Shown: positions 1-8,298 of the stretch, piece by piece
Position numbering within the stretch: position 1 is the stretch's first letter
Layout of the letters: every line of letters starts with the position of its first letter
Source: Spirochaetaceae bacterium
GTDB lineage: Bacteria; Spirochaetota; Spirochaetia; DSM-27196; SLST01
Assembly: GCA_007118855.1 (NCBI GenBank)
Contig: SKQU01000358.1
Span: 1 to 33,116 of the forward strand
Reading direction: 5' to 3'
Length of the DNA: 33,116 nt
The notes under the pieces: generated by a model
Told to the model about the DNA's origin: nothing
What the model saw: only the letters and a program-made list of their open reading frames with translations
Databases searched by the model: none
Program-made: the position numbers and the translations under genes

Positions 1-1866
1 CAGGACAGCGCACTCGAGCAGTACGGTGTCTGGGTGAAGGCCGGTCCGGAGGACGTGGATGAAAACGAGGCCGAGGATGGGGCTTTTGCCCTGACCGATC
101 TTGGTGACGAATCGCTCGAAGAGGGCGAGGGAGATCTGCTCGGCTTTGATCAGGACCTCGGTACCGACGAGCTCGACCTCGAAGACCTGGCTGCCGACGA
201 GTCCACTGAAGAGGAGCCTGTCGCGTCGGACACCGCCGACGCCTTCAGCGAGCCGGATCCCGACGAAGAAGAGGATCTTCTCACGCTCGATGACGAGGAT
301 TTCGGGCTCCACCTCGAGAGCGCGGAAGAGCCCGGAGAACCGGAGCATGCCGCCGTGACCGCCGCGGACGAACCTTCAGAGCTCGAAGAGCTCGACCTTG
401 ACGACCTTTCCGACGAGCACGGGTTGATCGAACCGGAGCCGGAACCGGCGGCGGTGAGCGACGAGCGACCATCCGGGGCCGGAGCCATCGACATCGACGA
501 CGAGCTCCCGGGAGACCTCGACGACCTGACCCTTGATCTGGAGACGCTCGACGTGGACTCCTTTGAGGAGTCCGCGGAGCCGGAGGACCAGGCAGGAGAG
601 ACCGACGAGCTCGATGTGCTCGAGCCCGAGGAGGAGACCGACGAGCTCGATCTGGACGCCCTTCAGCTCGACGACACCGAGACCGCCGAGATCGACCTCT
701 CGGCCCTTCCCGGTGACACCGACAGCCTCGACGAACCGCCGCAGGACCTCTCCCGGCCGCCGGAGGACGATCTGCCCGAGCTGGAGATCGATGACGGCAT
801 CAGCGACGACCTTGGATTCGACGAGATGTTCAATGATGTGGCGGCCGTCGAGGACGAGATGGTCGAAAGCGGCTCGCCGCGGCACGAGGGCGCGGGCGGG
901 GATCGGTCGGCTGCTCTGCTCGAGAGCATTGAGCATGAGCTCTCGTCCATCCGCACCGAGCTCGCGAACCTGAAGCAGGAACTCAGCAGGCTGCGCTCTG
1001 CTCCGGCTGCAACTGCCGAGCCGCGCGAGGGACCCGCTGCCGACGACCAGGACGCAGGCGGGTTCTTCGAGGACGAGGGCGATGACGACGAGACGATCGC
1101 GCTGACCGGAGCCGAGCTCGACAATATCATGAACACCGCCGAGTTCACCGAGCAGCCGGGGCGCCCGACCGACTTCGACGACATGGTCTCCTCCCCCGAT
1201 CAACTGGATGAGCAGCCGGAACCGGCCGGTCCTGCCGTCGACGACTTTCTCGGCTCACTGGATCTCCCGGGACCCGAAGGAGAGGCCGATACCGACTCTC
1301 CGGTTCAGGAGATCACCCTCGAGGAGAGTCCGCGGCAGACCGATACCATCGACCTGGACATCGACCTCGACGTTCCGGAGGAGCCCGCGACCGCGGTGGA
1401 GCCTGGGGCCGACGACGAACCGGCGGCCTTTGAGGGGTCGGAGGACGAGGTAGAGGCGCTCGCGAGCATGGATATTGATGCGGAGCTCGCGGATATCGAG
1501 GAGCTCGATGACACGAGCGCTCCGCCGTCGCCGCCTGCCGAGGTCGAAGCCGAGGAGGACTCGGCTCCCCTCGACGCAGAGTTTCTCGACGCTGAGTACC
1601 TCGGCGTTGAGACCGCCGAGGAGCCATTCCTCGAAGAGGTCCAGGATGAGCCGTTCGCGGATGTCTCGGAGGCGACAGCCGCCGGGACGCTTTCCGATGA
1701 GGAAACCCCTATACCCGAAAACCTGAAAGGCGAGCTGCGCAGCGTGCTGAACTACATGGACAAGCTGCTCGAGTCCTTGCCCGAAGAGAAGATCCAGGAG
1801 TTTGCGGCAAGCGAACACTTCAAAGTCTACCGTCGGCTCTTCGAAGAGCTGGGATTGGAGCAATAG
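1..1866 (+). CDS. Acidic low-complexity spirochaete protein (5' partial)
   Basis: The frame is open from base 1 (reading QDSALEQYGVWVKAGPEDV) to a TAG at 1864-1866, so the true start probably lies upstream; the GTG at 34 is only the first start-like codon inside the window. The protein is extremely rich in Asp and Glu, with many loose repeats of the form ELDLDDL or DIDDEL. A short predicted coiled coil lies at about nt 900-1010 (ESIEHELSSIRTELANLKQE). A motif reading ALTGAELDNIMNTAEFTE at about nt 1099-1152 and the last 50 or so residues (nt 1710-1863, IPENLKGELRSVLNYMDKLL) look folded and conserved. I recall similar architecture in other spirochaete proteins, but no function is known to me. 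It leads an operon with a GAF-like gene and two DUF115 genes, separated from the next start by 3 bases. Confidence 0.8.
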   Translation, partial: QDSALEQYGVWVKAGPEDVDENEAEDGAFALTDLGDESLEEGEGDLLGFDQDLGTDELDLEDLAADESTEEEPVASDTADAFSEPDPDEEEDLLTLDDEDFGLHLESAEEPGEPEHAAVTAADEPSELEELDLDDLSDEHGLIEPEPEPAAVSDERPSGAGAIDIDDELPGDLDDLTLDLETLDVDSFEESAEPEDQAGETDELDVLEPEEETDELDLDALQLDDTETAEIDLSALPGDTDSLDEPPQDLSRPPEDDLPELEIDDGISDDLGFDEMFNDVAAVEDEMVESGSPRHEGAGGDRSAALLESIEHELSSIRTELANLKQELSRLRSAPAATAEPREGPAADDQDAGGFFEDEGDDDETIALTGAELDNIMNTAEFTEQPGRPTDFDDMVSSPDQLDEQPEPAGPAVDDFLGSLDLPGPEGEADTDSPVQEITLEESPRQTDTIDLDIDLDVPEEPATAVEPGADDEPAAFEGSEDEVEALASMDIDAELADIEELDDTSAPPSPPAEVEAEEDSAPLDAEFLDAEYLGVETAEEPFLEEVQDEPFADVSEATAAGTLSDEETPIPENLKGELRSVLNYMDKLLESLPEEKIQEFAASEHFKVYRRLFEELGLEQ

Positions 1867-1869
1867 CGC

Positions 1870-2993
1870 ATGGGGCTCATGACCAGGGCGCTCGCGAGCG
1901 CCCAGACCTCGGATACCGGCGGGCTCCTCCGTCGCGCCAGCGAGATGCGGACAAGGGCCTGCGAGGCGCCGACGGTTGAGCGCCGGCGCCGGCCCGGCGG
2001 ACAGCCACGACCGGCGGATCCGGCTCCCCGCGCAACGGCTCAAAAAAAAAAGCCTGTGACCCCGCCCCGGACGACGATGGTCTACGCGCTCCCGCGGCAA
2101 TAAGGCGAATCCTTCACGACCTCCCCGACCTCCCTGGGAGCTTCGAGCTGCCCGCGCACATCTTCCGACTGCTGACGGCCAATCTTGAGCTCGAACGCGC
2201 CGCGATCCTGCTGCCTGACCTCGACCTCGACGTCTTCGTGCCGTGGGCGGGGTGCGGCCTTGACTCGACCTCCATGCACCGCCTGCGTCTTCCGGGTGGC
2301 GACCTGAGGGATGCCCTTGGCAACCACGAGGCCGGTGTCCTCTGGACCGGCGAATCGTGCGGCGAGTTCGCACCGTACCTCTCGCAGCGTGAGGCGTCGA
2401 TGCTCGAGCATCTGCTCTTCTTTCCGTTCACCTTTCGTGACGACCTCCAGGCGGTGCTCGTGGTGACCGAGAGTCCCTACTTCGACGGCCGCAGCGAATA
2501 CCTGCGGATCATCCTTGCGGCGGTCGCAGAGCCTGCGGCAGCGGCAATGAACCGGCACCGGGACCTCTTCGCTCAGACTGTCAGGCAGGCAATCGTGTTC
2601 AAGTCGACCGACGTCGATGCGCTTGCCCGGCGCATGGCCGCACGTGTGCCGGGAGGGGTGCGAGTCGTCCTGCTCGAGCTCTCCGACGTCATCTCTCAGA
2701 TCGCCACGTCGAACGACCTGCTCGATCCCTTTCGTGTACGCCAGGACGTACTGAGGCGGATCGCGTCCCTCTTTGCGTCGACCGCCAGTGTCTGCGACGC
2801 CGACGGGCAACGGGCGTTGCTCCTGCTGCACGGCACCGCCGAGGAGGATCCCGACCTCCTTGTCCAGCATGTCGCAGCCGATCTGGCCCGTTTCATGCCC
2901 GAGCTCGCCGGGGTTCCGGTGCTGCGCTTCACCACCGCCCACTGCCCCGATGATTCGAGCGATCTGAGCGCGCTGATCGACTCCCTCCTGTGA
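1870..2993 (+). CDS. GAF-like / degenerate GGDEF protein, interrupted by a frameshift at an A10 tract
   Basis: Starting at ATG 1870, frame 1 codes for 77 residues (MGLMTRALASAQ...) and stops at TAA 2101-2103. The -1 frame is open from 1980 to TGA 2991-2993 and clearly codes for protein from about 2079 onward (GLRAPAAIRRILHDLPDLPG, then HIFRLL), but has no ATG, GTG or TTG before GTG 2238, which would remove part of the first domain. A run of ten A's at 2042-2051 is the natural junction; one extra A joins both parts into a 374-residue protein. That protein would have a basic, Pro-rich N-terminal linker, a GAF-like domain (nt about 2100-2560) and a C-terminal alpha/beta domain resembling a GGDEF fold without the GGDEF motif. 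The next gene overlaps by 4 bases (GTGA). It could be programmed slippage, phase variation, a real disruption or an assembly error. Domain names are inferred from fold-like patterns only. Confidence 0.7.
2042..2051 (+). other. A10 homopolymer, candidate slippery site
   Basis: Ten consecutive A's preceded by C and followed by GCC, in otherwise very GC-rich DNA. In the upstream frame the codons are CAA AAA AAA AAG; in the downstream frame they are AAA AAA AAA GCC. A -1 ribosomal slip on A-AAA-AAG or A-AAA-AAA, or insertion of one A by RNA polymerase, would join the N-terminal and C-terminal parts of the gene at 1870-2993. Runs of nine or more A's are known substrates for transcriptional slippage, as in Thermus dnaX. 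I see no obvious stimulatory Shine-Dalgarno-like element just upstream. Confidence 0.6.
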
Positions 2994-4546
2994 CCGGTCT
3001 GCGCATCACCACCGCGCGAAACGGCGAGCCCACCGCAATCCTCGGGACCCGGCACCTGCATTCACGGGTTTCGCCGCGCGAAGAGGCTGCGAGATTCGTC
3101 ATCAGGCAGATCGACCGATCCTGCCGCCTCGTGCTCGTCATAGGTCCGGGACTCGGGCACTCGTTCGCCGCTCTTCGGGAGCTCCTCCCTGAAGCCCGGC
3201 TGTTCGGCCTCTCGCTCTCGAGCGAGCTCGCTCAAGCGCAGCACTGGCGTCCGGATCGCGGCTGGGACCCCGGCAGCGACGAGCCGCTTCGCGTCTTCCT
3301 GACTCGCGAGCTGTCCGACCTCGATTCGTCTTCGGTCCTCGTCCTCGAGTGGCCTCCGGTTGTCGCCGCCTTCCCGAAGGTCGCCGAGTCGGTGCGTGCC
3401 GAAGTATCGGCCCATCTGCGGCGGGGTCACGCCAGTCTCGTGACCCGCGGCGCGAGCGGCCGCCGCTGGCTGCGGAACCAGATCTTCAACTTCCGGCACG
3501 GGGCACCGGCGGCGTTCCGCAGATCCGGCAGCGGTATCAGCGCCGCCGTCCTCATCGGGTCCGGACCCTCTGCCGAGCGGATCATCCCCGGGCTGGGTGT
3601 CTTGCGCGACCGTCTCGAGTTCTGGGTCACGGGCTCCGCGCTCGATGCCGTCGTACGTCTCGGACTCAGACCGGACGTGGTTGTCGTCACCGATGCCGCG
3701 GTCTACGCCGGAGAGCACCTCCGACCGGCAATCAGCGGCCTCCTGCGCGATGCGCCGGTCGCCGCCCCGCTCTCGGCCACCCGGGCAGTCGCGGGCTGCG
3801 AGCGGCTTGTCGTCCTCAGCGAAGGCGATGTCGTCGAGGAAGAGCTGTTCACCCGGGCAGGCCTCTCGGCTCCTCTGATTCCTCCGCACGGAACGGTGAG
3901 CGCTACCGCCGCGGCGCTGATCCGGACCACCGGCGACCTCCCCATCGTCTGTGTCGGTGTCGACTTCGCGTGGCGCTCGGGTCGGTCACACGCCCGCCCC
4001 CATCTCTCTGAGATCTACCGCAGAACGACGGCACACCGGTGCTCACCCGAGGAGACGCAGGTCTACGCGCTGGCCCGCGGCCAGGAGCCACTCTGCGGCG
4101 AGTGGACTTCGAGCCCTTCGCTGCTCGCCTACTCCGAGTGGTTTCACAGCGTCGGCCGTCTACGTTTCGCCCCGATCCATTCGCTTTCAACCTCGCCTGC
4201 AGCCGCCTCGCTCCCTGCGATCGGCCTCGACCATCTCGCGTCGCTCGAACCGCGGTACCAACGGATCAGCTGCGCCCCCTCGCCCCTCCTCCCTGAGGCG
4301 GAACGAACACGCATCGCGCGACAGACGCTCTGCTCGCTCATCCGGACCAGTCGCACGGCGAGACCGCCCGACCGTCCGCGTGACCTTGAGACGGCCTGCC
4401 CCTCTTTCGCCTCGCTCGCCGTGAAGCTCGCGCTGCCGCAGCTCCTGCGATGGTACCGTGACGATCACGATCAGCGCGACCGGTGGGCCGGGATTCAGGC
4501 GATCGTTGAGCAGGAGCTTACGGACCTCCTGAGGGAGACCGGATGA
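2990..4546 (+). CDS. DUF115 / MptE-like (Maf-type motility accessory) protein, copy 1
   Basis: 518 residues from a GTG that overlaps the previous stop (GTGA). An N-terminal Rossmann-like stretch at about residues 43-70 has a glycine-rich turn (VLVIGPGLGHS). The DUF115 core spans about residues 185-330 and includes AVLIGSGPSAERIIPGL, a LRPDVVVVTDAAVY segment and VCVGVDFAW. DUF115 is found in archaeal MptE (6-hydroxymethylpterin diphosphokinase) and in Maf proteins, which are needed for flagellin glycosylation in Campylobacter, Helicobacter and Aeromonas. In a spirochaete the Maf-like role is the better guess, acting in the cytoplasm on flagellin, but that is inference. The next gene is a divergent paralogue and overlaps by 4 bases (ATGA), so the two products may work as a pair. 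Confidence 0.82.
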   Translation: MTGLRITTARNGEPTAILGTRHLHSRVSPREEAARFVIRQIDRSCRLVLVIGPGLGHSFAALRELLPEARLFGLSLSSELAQAQHWRPDRGWDPGSDEPLRVFLTRELSDLDSSSVLVLEWPPVVAAFPKVAESVRAEVSAHLRRGHASLVTRGASGRRWLRNQIFNFRHGAPAAFRRSGSGISAAVLIGSGPSAERIIPGLGVLRDRLEFWVTGSALDAVVRLGLRPDVVVVTDAAVYAGEHLRPAISGLLRDAPVAAPLSATRAVAGCERLVVLSEGDVVEEELFTRAGLSAPLIPPHGTVSATAAALIRTTGDLPIVCVGVDFAWRSGRSHARPHLSEIYRRTTAHRCSPEETQVYALARGQEPLCGEWTSSPSLLAYSEWFHSVGRLRFAPIHSLSTSPAAASLPAIGLDHLASLEPRYQRISCAPSPLLPEAERTRIARQTLCSLIRTSRTARPPDRPRDLETACPSFASLAVKLALPQLLRWYRDDHDQRDRWAGIQAIVEQELTDLLRETG

Positions 4547-6159
4547 CGCTGCTCGACCGGCAGCTCGCCCTGCTTCCGCCGGACATTGCACGGGAAATAT
4601 TGAGCGCCCCTGCGCGGCCCGACGAGATCTTCGAGACCTCCGGCGATCAGGTGCCGGTGAACGGCATCCTCCGTGACGGCCGAGCCTTCCTGTTCCATTC
4701 ACGATACGCGGCTGTCCGCGAGGCCAGGCGAATAGCCGGCGTCGCGGCAGCAGCCGGATGCGTCGTGGCGCTCGGCGTGGGCATGGGACACCATCTGCGC
4801 GCACTCGCCGAGCGTGCCGAGCGAATCGTGGCCGTCGAGCCCGACGCGGCGCTCCTGCGTTCGGCCCTCTCGCGCGTCGACTTGACCGATCTGCTCGGCT
4901 CCAGACGCCTGACCCTGATCACCGACTGCCGCGAGGAAGTCCTCCTCGAGCTGATAGCTGCGCGCTACGTTCCCGGGGTGCACGGCGCGCTGCGCATGGC
5001 GGAGCTCCCGGGAAGAGTAGGCGCCGAGCCGCAGCGGATGAACGAGATCCGCGACGCTCTCAGCCGGGCAGTCCAGTCGTTGTCCGGCGATCTGGCGATC
5101 CAGGCCCGATTCGGGCTGGCATGGACGCGAAACGCGGTTTTCAACCTCCTGCGGGCGAGACCCGGCCCGCTCCCGGACTTCGGCGGGCAGACGGTCGTGG
5201 TCGCCGCCGCCGGTCCTTCGCTGGCCGACGCAGTCGGGACCCTCGCCGAAGCCCGGCATCCGATCATCGCGGTCGACACGGCCCTTCCCGTCCTGCAGTC
5301 GCACGGCGTGAGCCCTCACCTGGTTGTATCCGTCGACTGTCAGCTTGCCTCGTACCACCATTACCTCTGCGCCGGCTTCCCGCGCATACCGGTCGCCGCC
5401 GACCTCTCGGTGGCCCCGTCGGTCTTCTCGCGGCTCGTGCAGACGATTCCCGTTCTCAGCGATCATCCGCTGCATCGCCTGTTTCGCCATCTGGGGCTGC
5501 GCGCGCCCCATGCGGACGCGCGGGGGGGGAATGTCGCTCAGGCCGCAGTCGATCTCGCCGTGCGATGCGGCGCGCGCGAGGTCCGGCTCGTCGGGGCAGA
5601 CTTCTCGTATCCGGACGGTCAGACCTATCCGCGCGGCAGCTACGTTCACCACCTGTTTGCCGGGCGTTGCGGCAGGCTCACCCCGGCGGAGAGCATGCAC
5701 TACGGTTTCCTCGCACGGCGGCCCGGGCTACGGCCCGACCCCGACCGGCCGTCGCGGCTCCTGCAGCCCCTGCTCTGCAGCTATGCCCGCAACATGGAAC
5801 GGTTCGCAGGAACGCTCCCGGTGCCGGTCACTCAGGAGCCGGGTCGGGGCATCCGCCTCGACCTGCCCCCGCCGCGAGGAAGCGCGAGCGCTCATCGCTC
5901 ACCCGATGAGTTGCGTCCCACCGCGGTCTCGCCGCGGGACCTACTCGGCAGCGCTGAGGAGCTCTTCAGCACGATAGCCGACAGCGCGAGCCTTCTACGC
6001 GGCATTGATGCGCAAGCGCAGGCGGTGGCGCTCGCCGCGCGCGCGCTCCTGCCTCCGCTCACCTGTCTGCGGTCTCGCGACCCGGAGGCGGATGCGGATC
6101 TCCTGGTCGCTCGCGCATCGCAATGGACGCGCTCGACCATCCGCGCGGCGCTCTCATGA
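4543..6159 (+). CDS. DUF115 / MptE-like (Maf-type motility accessory) protein, copy 2
   Basis: 538 residues, starting at an ATG that overlaps the stop of copy 1. An N-terminal methyltransferase-like Rossmann stretch (about residues 70-105, VALGVGMGHHLRAL followed by IVAVEPD) precedes the DUF115 core at about residues 217-350, with VVVAAAGPSLADAV, SPHLVVSVDCQLASYHHY and VRLVGADFSYPDGQTY. It has the same domain order as its upstream neighbour but low identity by eye, so this is an old duplication rather than a recent tandem copy. It is the last gene of the first operon and runs convergently toward the MEMO gene with a 13-base gap that holds no evident terminator. The function is probably nucleotide-sugar or flagellin modification, by analogy with Maf proteins. 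Confidence 0.82.
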   Translation: MTLLDRQLALLPPDIAREILSAPARPDEIFETSGDQVPVNGILRDGRAFLFHSRYAAVREARRIAGVAAAAGCVVALGVGMGHHLRALAERAERIVAVEPDAALLRSALSRVDLTDLLGSRRLTLITDCREEVLLELIAARYVPGVHGALRMAELPGRVGAEPQRMNEIRDALSRAVQSLSGDLAIQARFGLAWTRNAVFNLLRARPGPLPDFGGQTVVVAAAGPSLADAVGTLAEARHPIIAVDTALPVLQSHGVSPHLVVSVDCQLASYHHYLCAGFPRIPVAADLSVAPSVFSRLVQTIPVLSDHPLHRLFRHLGLRAPHADARGGNVAQAAVDLAVRCGAREVRLVGADFSYPDGQTYPRGSYVHHLFAGRCGRLTPAESMHYGFLARRPGLRPDPDRPSRLLQPLLCSYARNMERFAGTLPVPVTQEPGRGIRLDLPPPRGSASAHRSPDELRPTAVSPRDLLGSAEELFSTIADSASLLRGIDAQAQAVALAARALLPPLTCLRSRDPEADADLLVARASQWTRSTIRAALS

Positions 6160-6172
6160 GAGGACCCGCGCC

Positions 6173-7003
6173 TCAGCAGCGGTAGCCGATCGCCACGTAC
6201 CCCACGAACGACTCGTCCGGCCGTACGTCGAGGCTCTGGGCGTACTCGATGAGATCGCCTCTCTCCGCGCCGCACTGCGAGGCGAACCCGATCGCTGCGG
6301 CTGCGGCCCCGCTGCTGCATGCCGCGTGTCGCTCGAGGGCCAGGCGCAGAACCTGTTCGGCGTCGAGCCGGACCATCGCCTGAACGACCGGACCGTCGTT
6401 CTCTACGCGAACCCACCGGCTCGCGTCACTCCCGACGCCGCGGTGCGTGAACCCGTACGCCGGACCGTAGTGGGTGAGGTCGGTTGAGCCGACGAGGCAG
6501 ACCGTGCGCCCCTGCGCTGCCGCGTACTCGGCAACAGCGCGCCCGAGCATTTCGGCGGACGGAGCCGGGGGACAGCGCAGCGCGACCACCCGCGCGCGGG
6601 GCCGCAGGTAGTGGATGAGCGGGAGCTGCACCTCCACGGTATTGTCCGCGACACGATCCTCGCGAAGATCAAACCGGCTCTGCAGCGCCGAGATCAAGGA
6701 CGTGTCCGCCTCCAGGCGGCCGAACGGCGTCTCGAATCCGGACTCGGGCGCTGCGAGAACCGGGTCCGACGGTCGAAGATGTCCGCCAACGACCACGATC
6801 GTATCCGCGCCCTCCGGCAATGCACGCAGCGCCCGGTACGCAAGCCGCCCGGAAAAGGCCCAACCGGCATGCGGAACGACAACCGACGCGTACCGCCCGG
6901 CCGCCGCGGACAGGCCGGTCTCCCACTCTTCGCAGCGGAGGCGGACTCCTTCTGCAGTCGACGGATACCATCCGGAGGGAAGCGATCGACGGCGTACTGT
7001 CAT
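6173..7003 (-). CDS. amrB: MEMO family protein (AmmeMemoRadiSam system protein B)
   Basis: 276 residues from ATG 7003. Family signatures are VVPHAGWAFSG with the first conserved His, VVGGHLRPSD with the second, GSTDLTHYGP with the Asp and third His, and a Cys in the C-terminal AACSSGA segment. These match the metal-binding residues of human MEMO1 and related extradiol-dioxygenase-like folds. The biochemical role in bacteria is not established; the family normally co-occurs with AMMECR1 and a radical-SAM protein. AMMECR1 lies 13 kb away in this window (20184). A TTG at 7039 would add 12 residues, but ATG 7003 fits the family start better. It also coincides with the predicted transcription start of a TTGCGC-N18-TATGGT promoter, suggesting a leaderless mRNA. 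Confidence 0.88.
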   Translation of the reverse strand: MTVRRRSLPSGWYPSTAEGVRLRCEEWETGLSAAAGRYASVVVPHAGWAFSGRLAYRALRALPEGADTIVVVGGHLRPSDPVLAAPESGFETPFGRLEADTSLISALQSRFDLREDRVADNTVEVQLPLIHYLRPRARVVALRCPPAPSAEMLGRAVAEYAAAQGRTVCLVGSTDLTHYGPAYGFTHRGVGSDASRWVRVENDGPVVQAMVRLDAEQVLRLALERHAACSSGAAAAAIGFASQCGAERGDLIEYAQSLDVRPDESFVGYVAIGYRC

Positions 7004-7009
7004 ACCACT

Positions 7010-7039
7010 ACCATACAGAAGGACCGCCGCCCCGCGCAA
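7010..7039 (-). promoter_or_regulatory. Predicted sigma70-type promoter of the MEMO gene
   Basis: On the minus strand, TTGCGC (7039-7034), an 18-base spacer and TATGGT (7015-7010). Six bases separate the -10 box from ATG 7003, so the expected +1 is the A of the start codon. No Shine-Dalgarno sequence is present. It overlaps the divergent promoter region of the 7087 gene. Confidence 0.4.
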
Positions 7040-7051
7040 TCCGAAAACTGA

Positions 7052-7079
7052 TGCACACCGCCGGGAATTCTTCTATACT
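7052..7079 (+). promoter_or_regulatory. Predicted promoter of the degenerate GGDEF gene
   Basis: TATACT at 7074-7079 is a good -10 box; the best -35 candidate is the weaker TGCACA at 7052-7057 with a 16-base spacer. Seven bases separate the -10 box from ATG 7087, so the transcript would have a leader of about one base. No Shine-Dalgarno sequence is seen. Confidence 0.35.
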
Positions 7080-7086
7080 TCTACGC

Positions 7087-8298
7087 ATGTACCGGCGGTT
7101 CGGCCTCATCTACTCGATATTCAGTTTGCTCGTACTGGTCGGCCTGATCGTCCTGGTGCTCGCGAGGCTGAGCTCCACGCGGTCGGCCAATCTCGCCGAG
7201 ATGGAGGCCAGCTTCCGCAGGCTGCAGAACGACGTTGCGATCTCTGCCGCGGGAGACCATTCGCTGTCGCAGGTGCTGCGCGAATACACAAGAGTCGTCC
7301 CCTCGGTCCGCGCACTCGTCGCCTACGATCTCGAGCGCGGCTTACGCTACGTCTGGGCGGCAGACACGGCTCTGCTCGGCTTCACGCGGACCGAGCTCGA
7401 GTCGTTTCGCGGCTTCCCAACCTACCGGCTGAACGATATCAGCGAAGTCCGGCTGCGCGAGCAGCTCCCCTCCCCGCAGGACGGCCGCCTCTATCTGGAC
7501 GCGGTCTACCGCGTTTTGACCTTCTCCCAAGCCTATCCCGCGCTTCGCGACAGCCTGATCGCGCTGATTGGTTTCGCCTTCCTCACGGTTCTCGTCATTC
7601 TCGCGCTCGACCGGACGGGCCGGGCGGCTGCGGCCGCGGCCGACGTACCACCGGTCGCCGCCGAGCGTGGCGCAGAAGCCTCACCGGGCCGTGCCGCGAA
7701 GTCCGCGCAGGGCCGTGCGCGGACGGACGCACCGCCGGACGCACCGGAGCCCGACCACGAGGAGGACTTTGAGGAGGTCCCGGTTGAGGAGCTCGCCACC
7801 GACCCGGGCGAGCCGGGCACCCTGTTCAACCCGGTCACGGGTCTCTCCCATCGACTGCACCTCGACCGCAGACTCGGCCTCGAGCTCGAACGTTCAGCGT
7901 ACAACGACCAGGACCTCGCCTGCCTGCTCGTGCGATTCGCCGGTATCTCCGGAGGCGAAGCCTACGTGACTCGGGCGAAGCAGGTGCTCGCGACCTTCCA
8001 GTTCGAGGACCTGTGCTTCGAGTACGACGACTCGACCTTCTGCGTAATCCTCCCGAACGCCGAGTTGCCGCAGGCGCTGCGCCAGGCCCAGGCCTTTCGC
8101 GCCCAGCACCCCCAGAGCACAATAGGGCTGAGCTCCCGTAACGGTCGTCTCGTGGAGGCTCACCGCATCCTGATGGAGGCTGATCGCAGCCTGCGGCATG
8201 CGGAGAAGGAGCCCGGGCGCATCGTCGGGTTTCAGCCGGACCCCAGGAAGTACCGCCAGTACATCACGCAGCAGACCTCTCCCGGTCAGTCTCCCTGA
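7087..8298 (+). CDS. Membrane-anchored protein with degenerate GGDEF-like domain
   Basis: 403 residues from ATG 7087 (MYRRFGLIYSIF). One transmembrane helix lies at about residues 6-28, followed by a roughly 125-residue presumed periplasmic sensor segment, a second helix at about 156-175 (LIALIGFAFLTVLVILAL), an Ala/Pro/Glu-rich linker, and a C-terminal domain from about residue 240. That domain begins FNPVTGLSHRLHLDRRLGLE like a GGDEF domain, but the active-site loop reads EYDDSTFCVIL instead of GGDEF, so diguanylate cyclase activity is unlikely. It may act as a receptor or scaffold; the ligand is unknown. An upstream in-frame ATG at 7051 is possible but lacks support. Its 3' end overlaps the convergent DUF4340 gene by 13 bases. 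Confidence 0.78.
   Translation: MYRRFGLIYSIFSLLVLVGLIVLVLARLSSTRSANLAEMEASFRRLQNDVAISAAGDHSLSQVLREYTRVVPSVRALVAYDLERGLRYVWAADTALLGFTRTELESFRGFPTYRLNDISEVRLREQLPSPQDGRLYLDAVYRVLTFSQAYPALRDSLIALIGFAFLTVLVILALDRTGRAAAAAADVPPVAAERGAEASPGRAAKSAQGRARTDAPPDAPEPDHEEDFEEVPVEELATDPGEPGTLFNPVTGLSHRLHLDRRLGLELERSAYNDQDLACLLVRFAGISGGEAYVTRAKQVLATFQFEDLCFEYDDSTFCVILPNAELPQALRQAQAFRAQHPQSTIGLSSRNGRLVEAHRILMEADRSLRHAEKEPGRIVGFQPDPRKYRQYITQQTSPGQSP

Follow-up and report, generated by a model that had tools for sequence, protein, structure and literature searches.

The window analysed here (the whole stretch of DNA, 33,116 nucleotides of contig SKQU01000358.1 of the Spirochaetaceae bacterium assembly GCA_007118855.1) begins with a block of genes on the forward strand whose features are listed in Table 1. 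This block consists of a gene for an acidic protein, a gene divided between two reading frames by a run of ten adenines (A10), two DUF115/MptE-like genes and a gene for a membrane GGDEF-like protein. It occupies positions 1-8298 of the window and recurs across the class Spirochaetia (loci L176-L182), including a Treponema-like genome of 1.1 Mb (genome G119) in which the split gene is in one frame. The protein encoded upstream is very acidic, carries the motif ETIALTGAELDNIMNTAEFTE and a conserved C-terminus, and belongs to no Pfam or NCBIfam family. The function of the block is unknown, and a role in flagellar filament modification is a guess from the DUF115 genes.

Table 1. Coordinates of the features at the split-gene locus (positions in the window).
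Position	Strand	Feature	Basis
34..1866	+	Upstream gene, acidic protein cut by the contig start (C-terminal motif LPEEKIQEFAASEHFKVYRRLFEELGLEQ); its stop is just before the start of the split gene	Same gene precedes the split gene in relatives
1870..2103	+	0-frame ORF, predicted short form, 77 aa (conserved MGL. start motif, linker, KKK, unconserved tail)	Reading frames; comparison with relatives
2042..2051	+	A10 tract, proposed slippage site, read cAA AAA AAA AAG in the 0 frame; only A/T run of ten or more in the genome assembly	Conserved in 48 species
2043..2993	+	-1-frame part of the gene, predicted GAF domain plus degenerate GGDEF-like domain (316 aa from KKK); open frame runs 1980-2993; stop overlaps the next start (GTGA)	Comparison with relatives; AlphaFold2 model (pLDDT 88)
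2990..4546	+	First DUF115/MptE-like gene	PF01973, E 1.1e-6, below the gathering score
4543..6159	+	Second DUF115/MptE-like gene, weak similarity to the N-terminal domain of the flagellin glycosyltransferase Maf	PF01973, E 6.9e-25; PF20157, E 3.8e-4
6820..8298	+	Membrane-anchored GGDEF-like protein at the end of the conserved block (likely true start near 7087)	TIGR00254, E 0.0089, below cut-off

The first ORF of the split gene starts at ATG 1870, just after the stop of the acidic-protein gene (1864-1866), and ends at TAA 2101-2103, whereas the first ATG, GTG or TTG in the -1 frame is the GTG at 2238. The A10 run is followed by G, and one extra A joins the two frames into (1124+1)/3-1 = 374 residues. 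All the coordinates given in the original prediction were confirmed; homology to relatives begins at the run itself (KKK, profile position 1) and not at about 2079, where a coherent protein had been said to begin. The run is not explained by chance or by codon bias. The window is about 66% GC, a run of eight or more A's is expected 0.03 times in 33 kb, the next longest A/T run in the window is A6, and A10 occurs once in the whole 3.9 Mb assembly, while only 12% of the Lys codons in the window are AAA.

Six other genomes of the same family (here f1; families and genomes sampled in this work are numbered with f and G) carry the gene, one named match being a Spirochaetales MAG, CSSed165cm_69. All of them have exactly A10 at the same place, and in all of them the upstream ORF (MGL...) and the downstream ORF of about 315 residues differ by -1. 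The upstream peptide is conserved mainly in its N-terminal motif and in KKK, whereas the downstream part is well conserved, with 42-74% identity to the window. In the f1 genomes in which the gene was found there are only one or two A10 runs in the whole genome, and one of them is always this. Within the order, a profile found the gene in 41 of 46 genomes. Families f4, f5 and f7 have exactly A10 with the -1 offset, while families f2, f3, f6 and f8 have one frame and no such run, with the exception of G026 (f6), which has A11 in an uninterrupted frame. Two genomes (G001 and G018) have an A10 elsewhere and no detectable copy of this gene. Interestingly, a second A-run gene was noticed in the same order, a chelatase chlI/chlD-like gene that carries A10 with a -1 frame break in f4 and f7 but A11 with one 676-residue frame in G022, and that belongs to a described family of recoded genes (PMC3711429; PMC9227772).

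In the class, 126 of 395 Spirochaetia genomes, most of which are drafts, gave a match, and the regions around most of these were analysed by one procedure, with start codons assigned by motif and position. A wider phylum sample of 198 genomes gave matches only within the class at E 1e-10. Five loci were left out of the counts (one containing N, two cut at contig ends, one second copy in the same genome and one in which no start was found). After this curation, 48 species from 17 families and 23 genera have the gene split, always by -1; forty-six have a located start codon, and two (G024 and G041), which lack it at the contig end, were assigned by their sister species. All 48 have an A-run of at least nine at the junction, namely 44 A10, one A9, one A11 and two A12. 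By contrast, 69 species have the gene in one frame and only 11 of these, mostly AT-rich (f19 and f30), have a run of at least nine, the exceptions being G026 (A11), G050 (A10) and G075 (A11), in which slippage would shorten rather than lengthen the product (loci L054, reverse strand, run at 1338, L135 and L136). Fisher's exact test on the slightly larger uncurated set gave p of about 5e-23, a value that is descriptive only since the species are related. A protein tree needs at least 14 changes of state, with split copies in both halves of the tree, although many deep forks are weak and the number of origins is not settled.

These comparisons bear directly on the alternatives raised in the original prediction, which listed programmed slippage first, followed by phase variation of the run and by a base lost in the assembly. 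Programmed slippage is strongly supported, as the run and the -1 offset are conserved in 48 species of 17 families; close relatives share both, although more distant families do have an uninterrupted gene without the run. The window does come from a draft assembly of 439 contigs, but a lost base cannot recur in dozens of independent assemblies, and the -1-frame part is an intact, conserved protein with a confident predicted fold; an assembly error or a decaying pseudogene is therefore very unlikely. Phase variation is likewise not supported. A10 is long enough to be mutable, runs of 9-13 occur among homologues and in-frame runs exist in G026, G050 and G075. Nevertheless, phase variation predicts a mixture of ON and OFF lengths, and every genome of families f1, f4, f5, f7 and f35 in which the gene was found (31 genomes) has A10, with the -1 offset in every copy with a located start. 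No ON length (A11 or A8) is seen among them, and frame and run stay locked over deep branches, so that this explanation is very unlikely on comparisons that did not include variation within a species.

It could also be argued that the locus contains two separate genes, one for a small N-terminal peptide and one for an independently started GAF/pseudo-GGDEF protein, since in 13 of 49 loci some ATG, GTG or TTG lies within 25 codons after the run. However, only 3 of 49 have an ATG within that distance, the first ATG in the -1 frame is a median 85 codons after the run, the first start in the window lies inside the predicted GAF domain, and single-frame homologues fuse both parts. Independent initiation is thus very unlikely.

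As to the mechanism, the constant feature is run length, at least nine and nearly always ten, while the run starts in codon position 1, 2 or 3 and the next base is G, C or T. A phased -1 heptamer needs only six or seven A's, yet every split homologue keeps at least nine, which suggests that length matters and not a phased heptamer. Sixty-base windows near the run fold only slightly better than shuffles (mean z between -0.4 and -0.2; 4-8% of sites below -2 within 90 nt of the run), so that no clear downstream structure was found, pseudoknots not being included in the test, and SD-like words, present at 8 of 49 sites against 4 in a control position, are not clearly enriched. These facts favour slippage of RNA polymerase, but they do not exclude programmed -1 ribosomal frameshifting of the dnaX type, in which the mRNA would keep ten A's. 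The offset is always -1, and the efficient bacterial heptamer A AAA AAG lies in phase at 21 of 46 sites, with A AAA AAA at 17, A AAA AAC at 7 and A AAA AAT at 1, although any long A-run contains such a heptamer. Moreover, in E. coli chelatase cassettes -1 shifting rose with A-run length (7, 9 and 11 A: 10, 40 and 63%; PMC3711429), so length dependence alone does not prove polymerase slippage. We consider ribosomal frameshifting as the main route to the full protein unlikely, while ribosomal slipping could contribute.

The product of the joined frames was assigned to no family by NCBIfam or Pfam, and a sequence search of solved structures was weak (GAF of PtsP, E 0.053). AlphaFold2 gave a confident model with a GAF domain, a long helix and a GGDEF-like domain, for which the top Foldseek hit was PelD (4etx, E 5e-7); the TM-score of the full alignment was only 0.33, so the domain arrangement is not established. 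A loose GGDEF-like pattern was found in 3 of 117 homologues and is absent from the window protein, and RxxD is not conserved in the 22 aligned sequences inspected around the former GGDEF site. The protein is therefore not expected to be a cyclase, and c-di-GMP binding is unsupported.

Although transcript, peptide and read data are missing, our findings suggest with reasonable confidence that the A10 tract is a programmed slippage site, most likely used by RNA polymerase. We hypothesize that, while copying A10, the polymerase realigns and makes mRNAs with varying numbers of A's, of which those with one extra A (or two fewer) would give the 374-residue predicted GAF/pseudo-GGDEF protein and the rest short N-terminal peptides ending in KKK plus a few unconserved residues. 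The result would be a fixed, minority share of full-length protein and, because its stop overlaps the next start, possibly a set share of ribosomes reaching the DUF115 genes. The gene exists as one frame without the run in many families, so the short form is not universally needed, and, since its tail is not conserved, any function of the short form would lie in its N-terminal part. More tentatively, it is possible that slippage itself, and not one reading frame, is the selected trait, an ancient class-wide device fixing the ratio of a free N-terminal MGLL.../KKK peptide to the GAF/pseudo-GGDEF protein (and through overlap the DUF115 genes) that has survived changes of run length, codon phase and even polarity, as in G026, G050 and G075.

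The mechanism is known, but no report of this gene, or of conservation of such breadth, was found in the full-text literature searched, from which many journals are absent. Few chromosomal genes are known to depend on slippage of RNA polymerase over long evolutionary times, and this one keeps its run in 17 families of one bacterial class, including genomes with one or two A10 runs in millions of bases. It offers natural replicates (lengths 9-12, all phases, both polarities and run-free versions) for testing what slippage is for, and it draws attention to a conserved, uncharacterised five-gene block of spirochaetes. Gene callers are likely to split this gene in two or to miss its N-terminus.

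Previous studies describe systems close to this one, of which the first two provide precedents for this hypothesis. In Citrobacter rodentium tssM1, an A11 run yields mRNAs with 10-15 A, the frame is restored by extra A's without any ribosomal stimulators found, and both length variants of the one chromosomal gene and their ratio are needed (PMC4256274); there, however, the short form is most of the protein and slippage is shown in two species, whereas here the break is near the N-terminus and conserved over 17 families. In Shigella, where spa13 and mxiE undergo transcriptional slippage (reviewed in PMC5009743), slippage after 58 codons of spa13 adds 112 aa and affects the overlapping next gene, spa32, an arrangement similar to the short first ORF and overlapping stop described here, although the Shigella genes are plasmid-borne secretion genes of one group and the present gene is class-wide and of other function. 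In dnaX of Thermus thermophilus, slippage on A9 also sets the ratio of two products (PMC1088944), but the template frame gives the long product, whereas here it gives the short one, G026, G050 and G075 having the dnaX-like polarity. The fs-chlD/chelatase genes (PMC3711429; PMC9227772) likewise have a -1 frame break at an A-run between two protein parts, also present as A10 in several of these spirochaetes, but this is a different gene and was described as ribosomal frameshifting with downstream structure. Finally, PelD of Pseudomonas, a c-di-GMP receptor with GAF and degenerate GGDEF domains, is the best structural match over the whole model, from which the present protein differs in that no RxxD is conserved at the aligned positions sampled, no N-terminal membrane segment is evident and no pel genes lie nearby.
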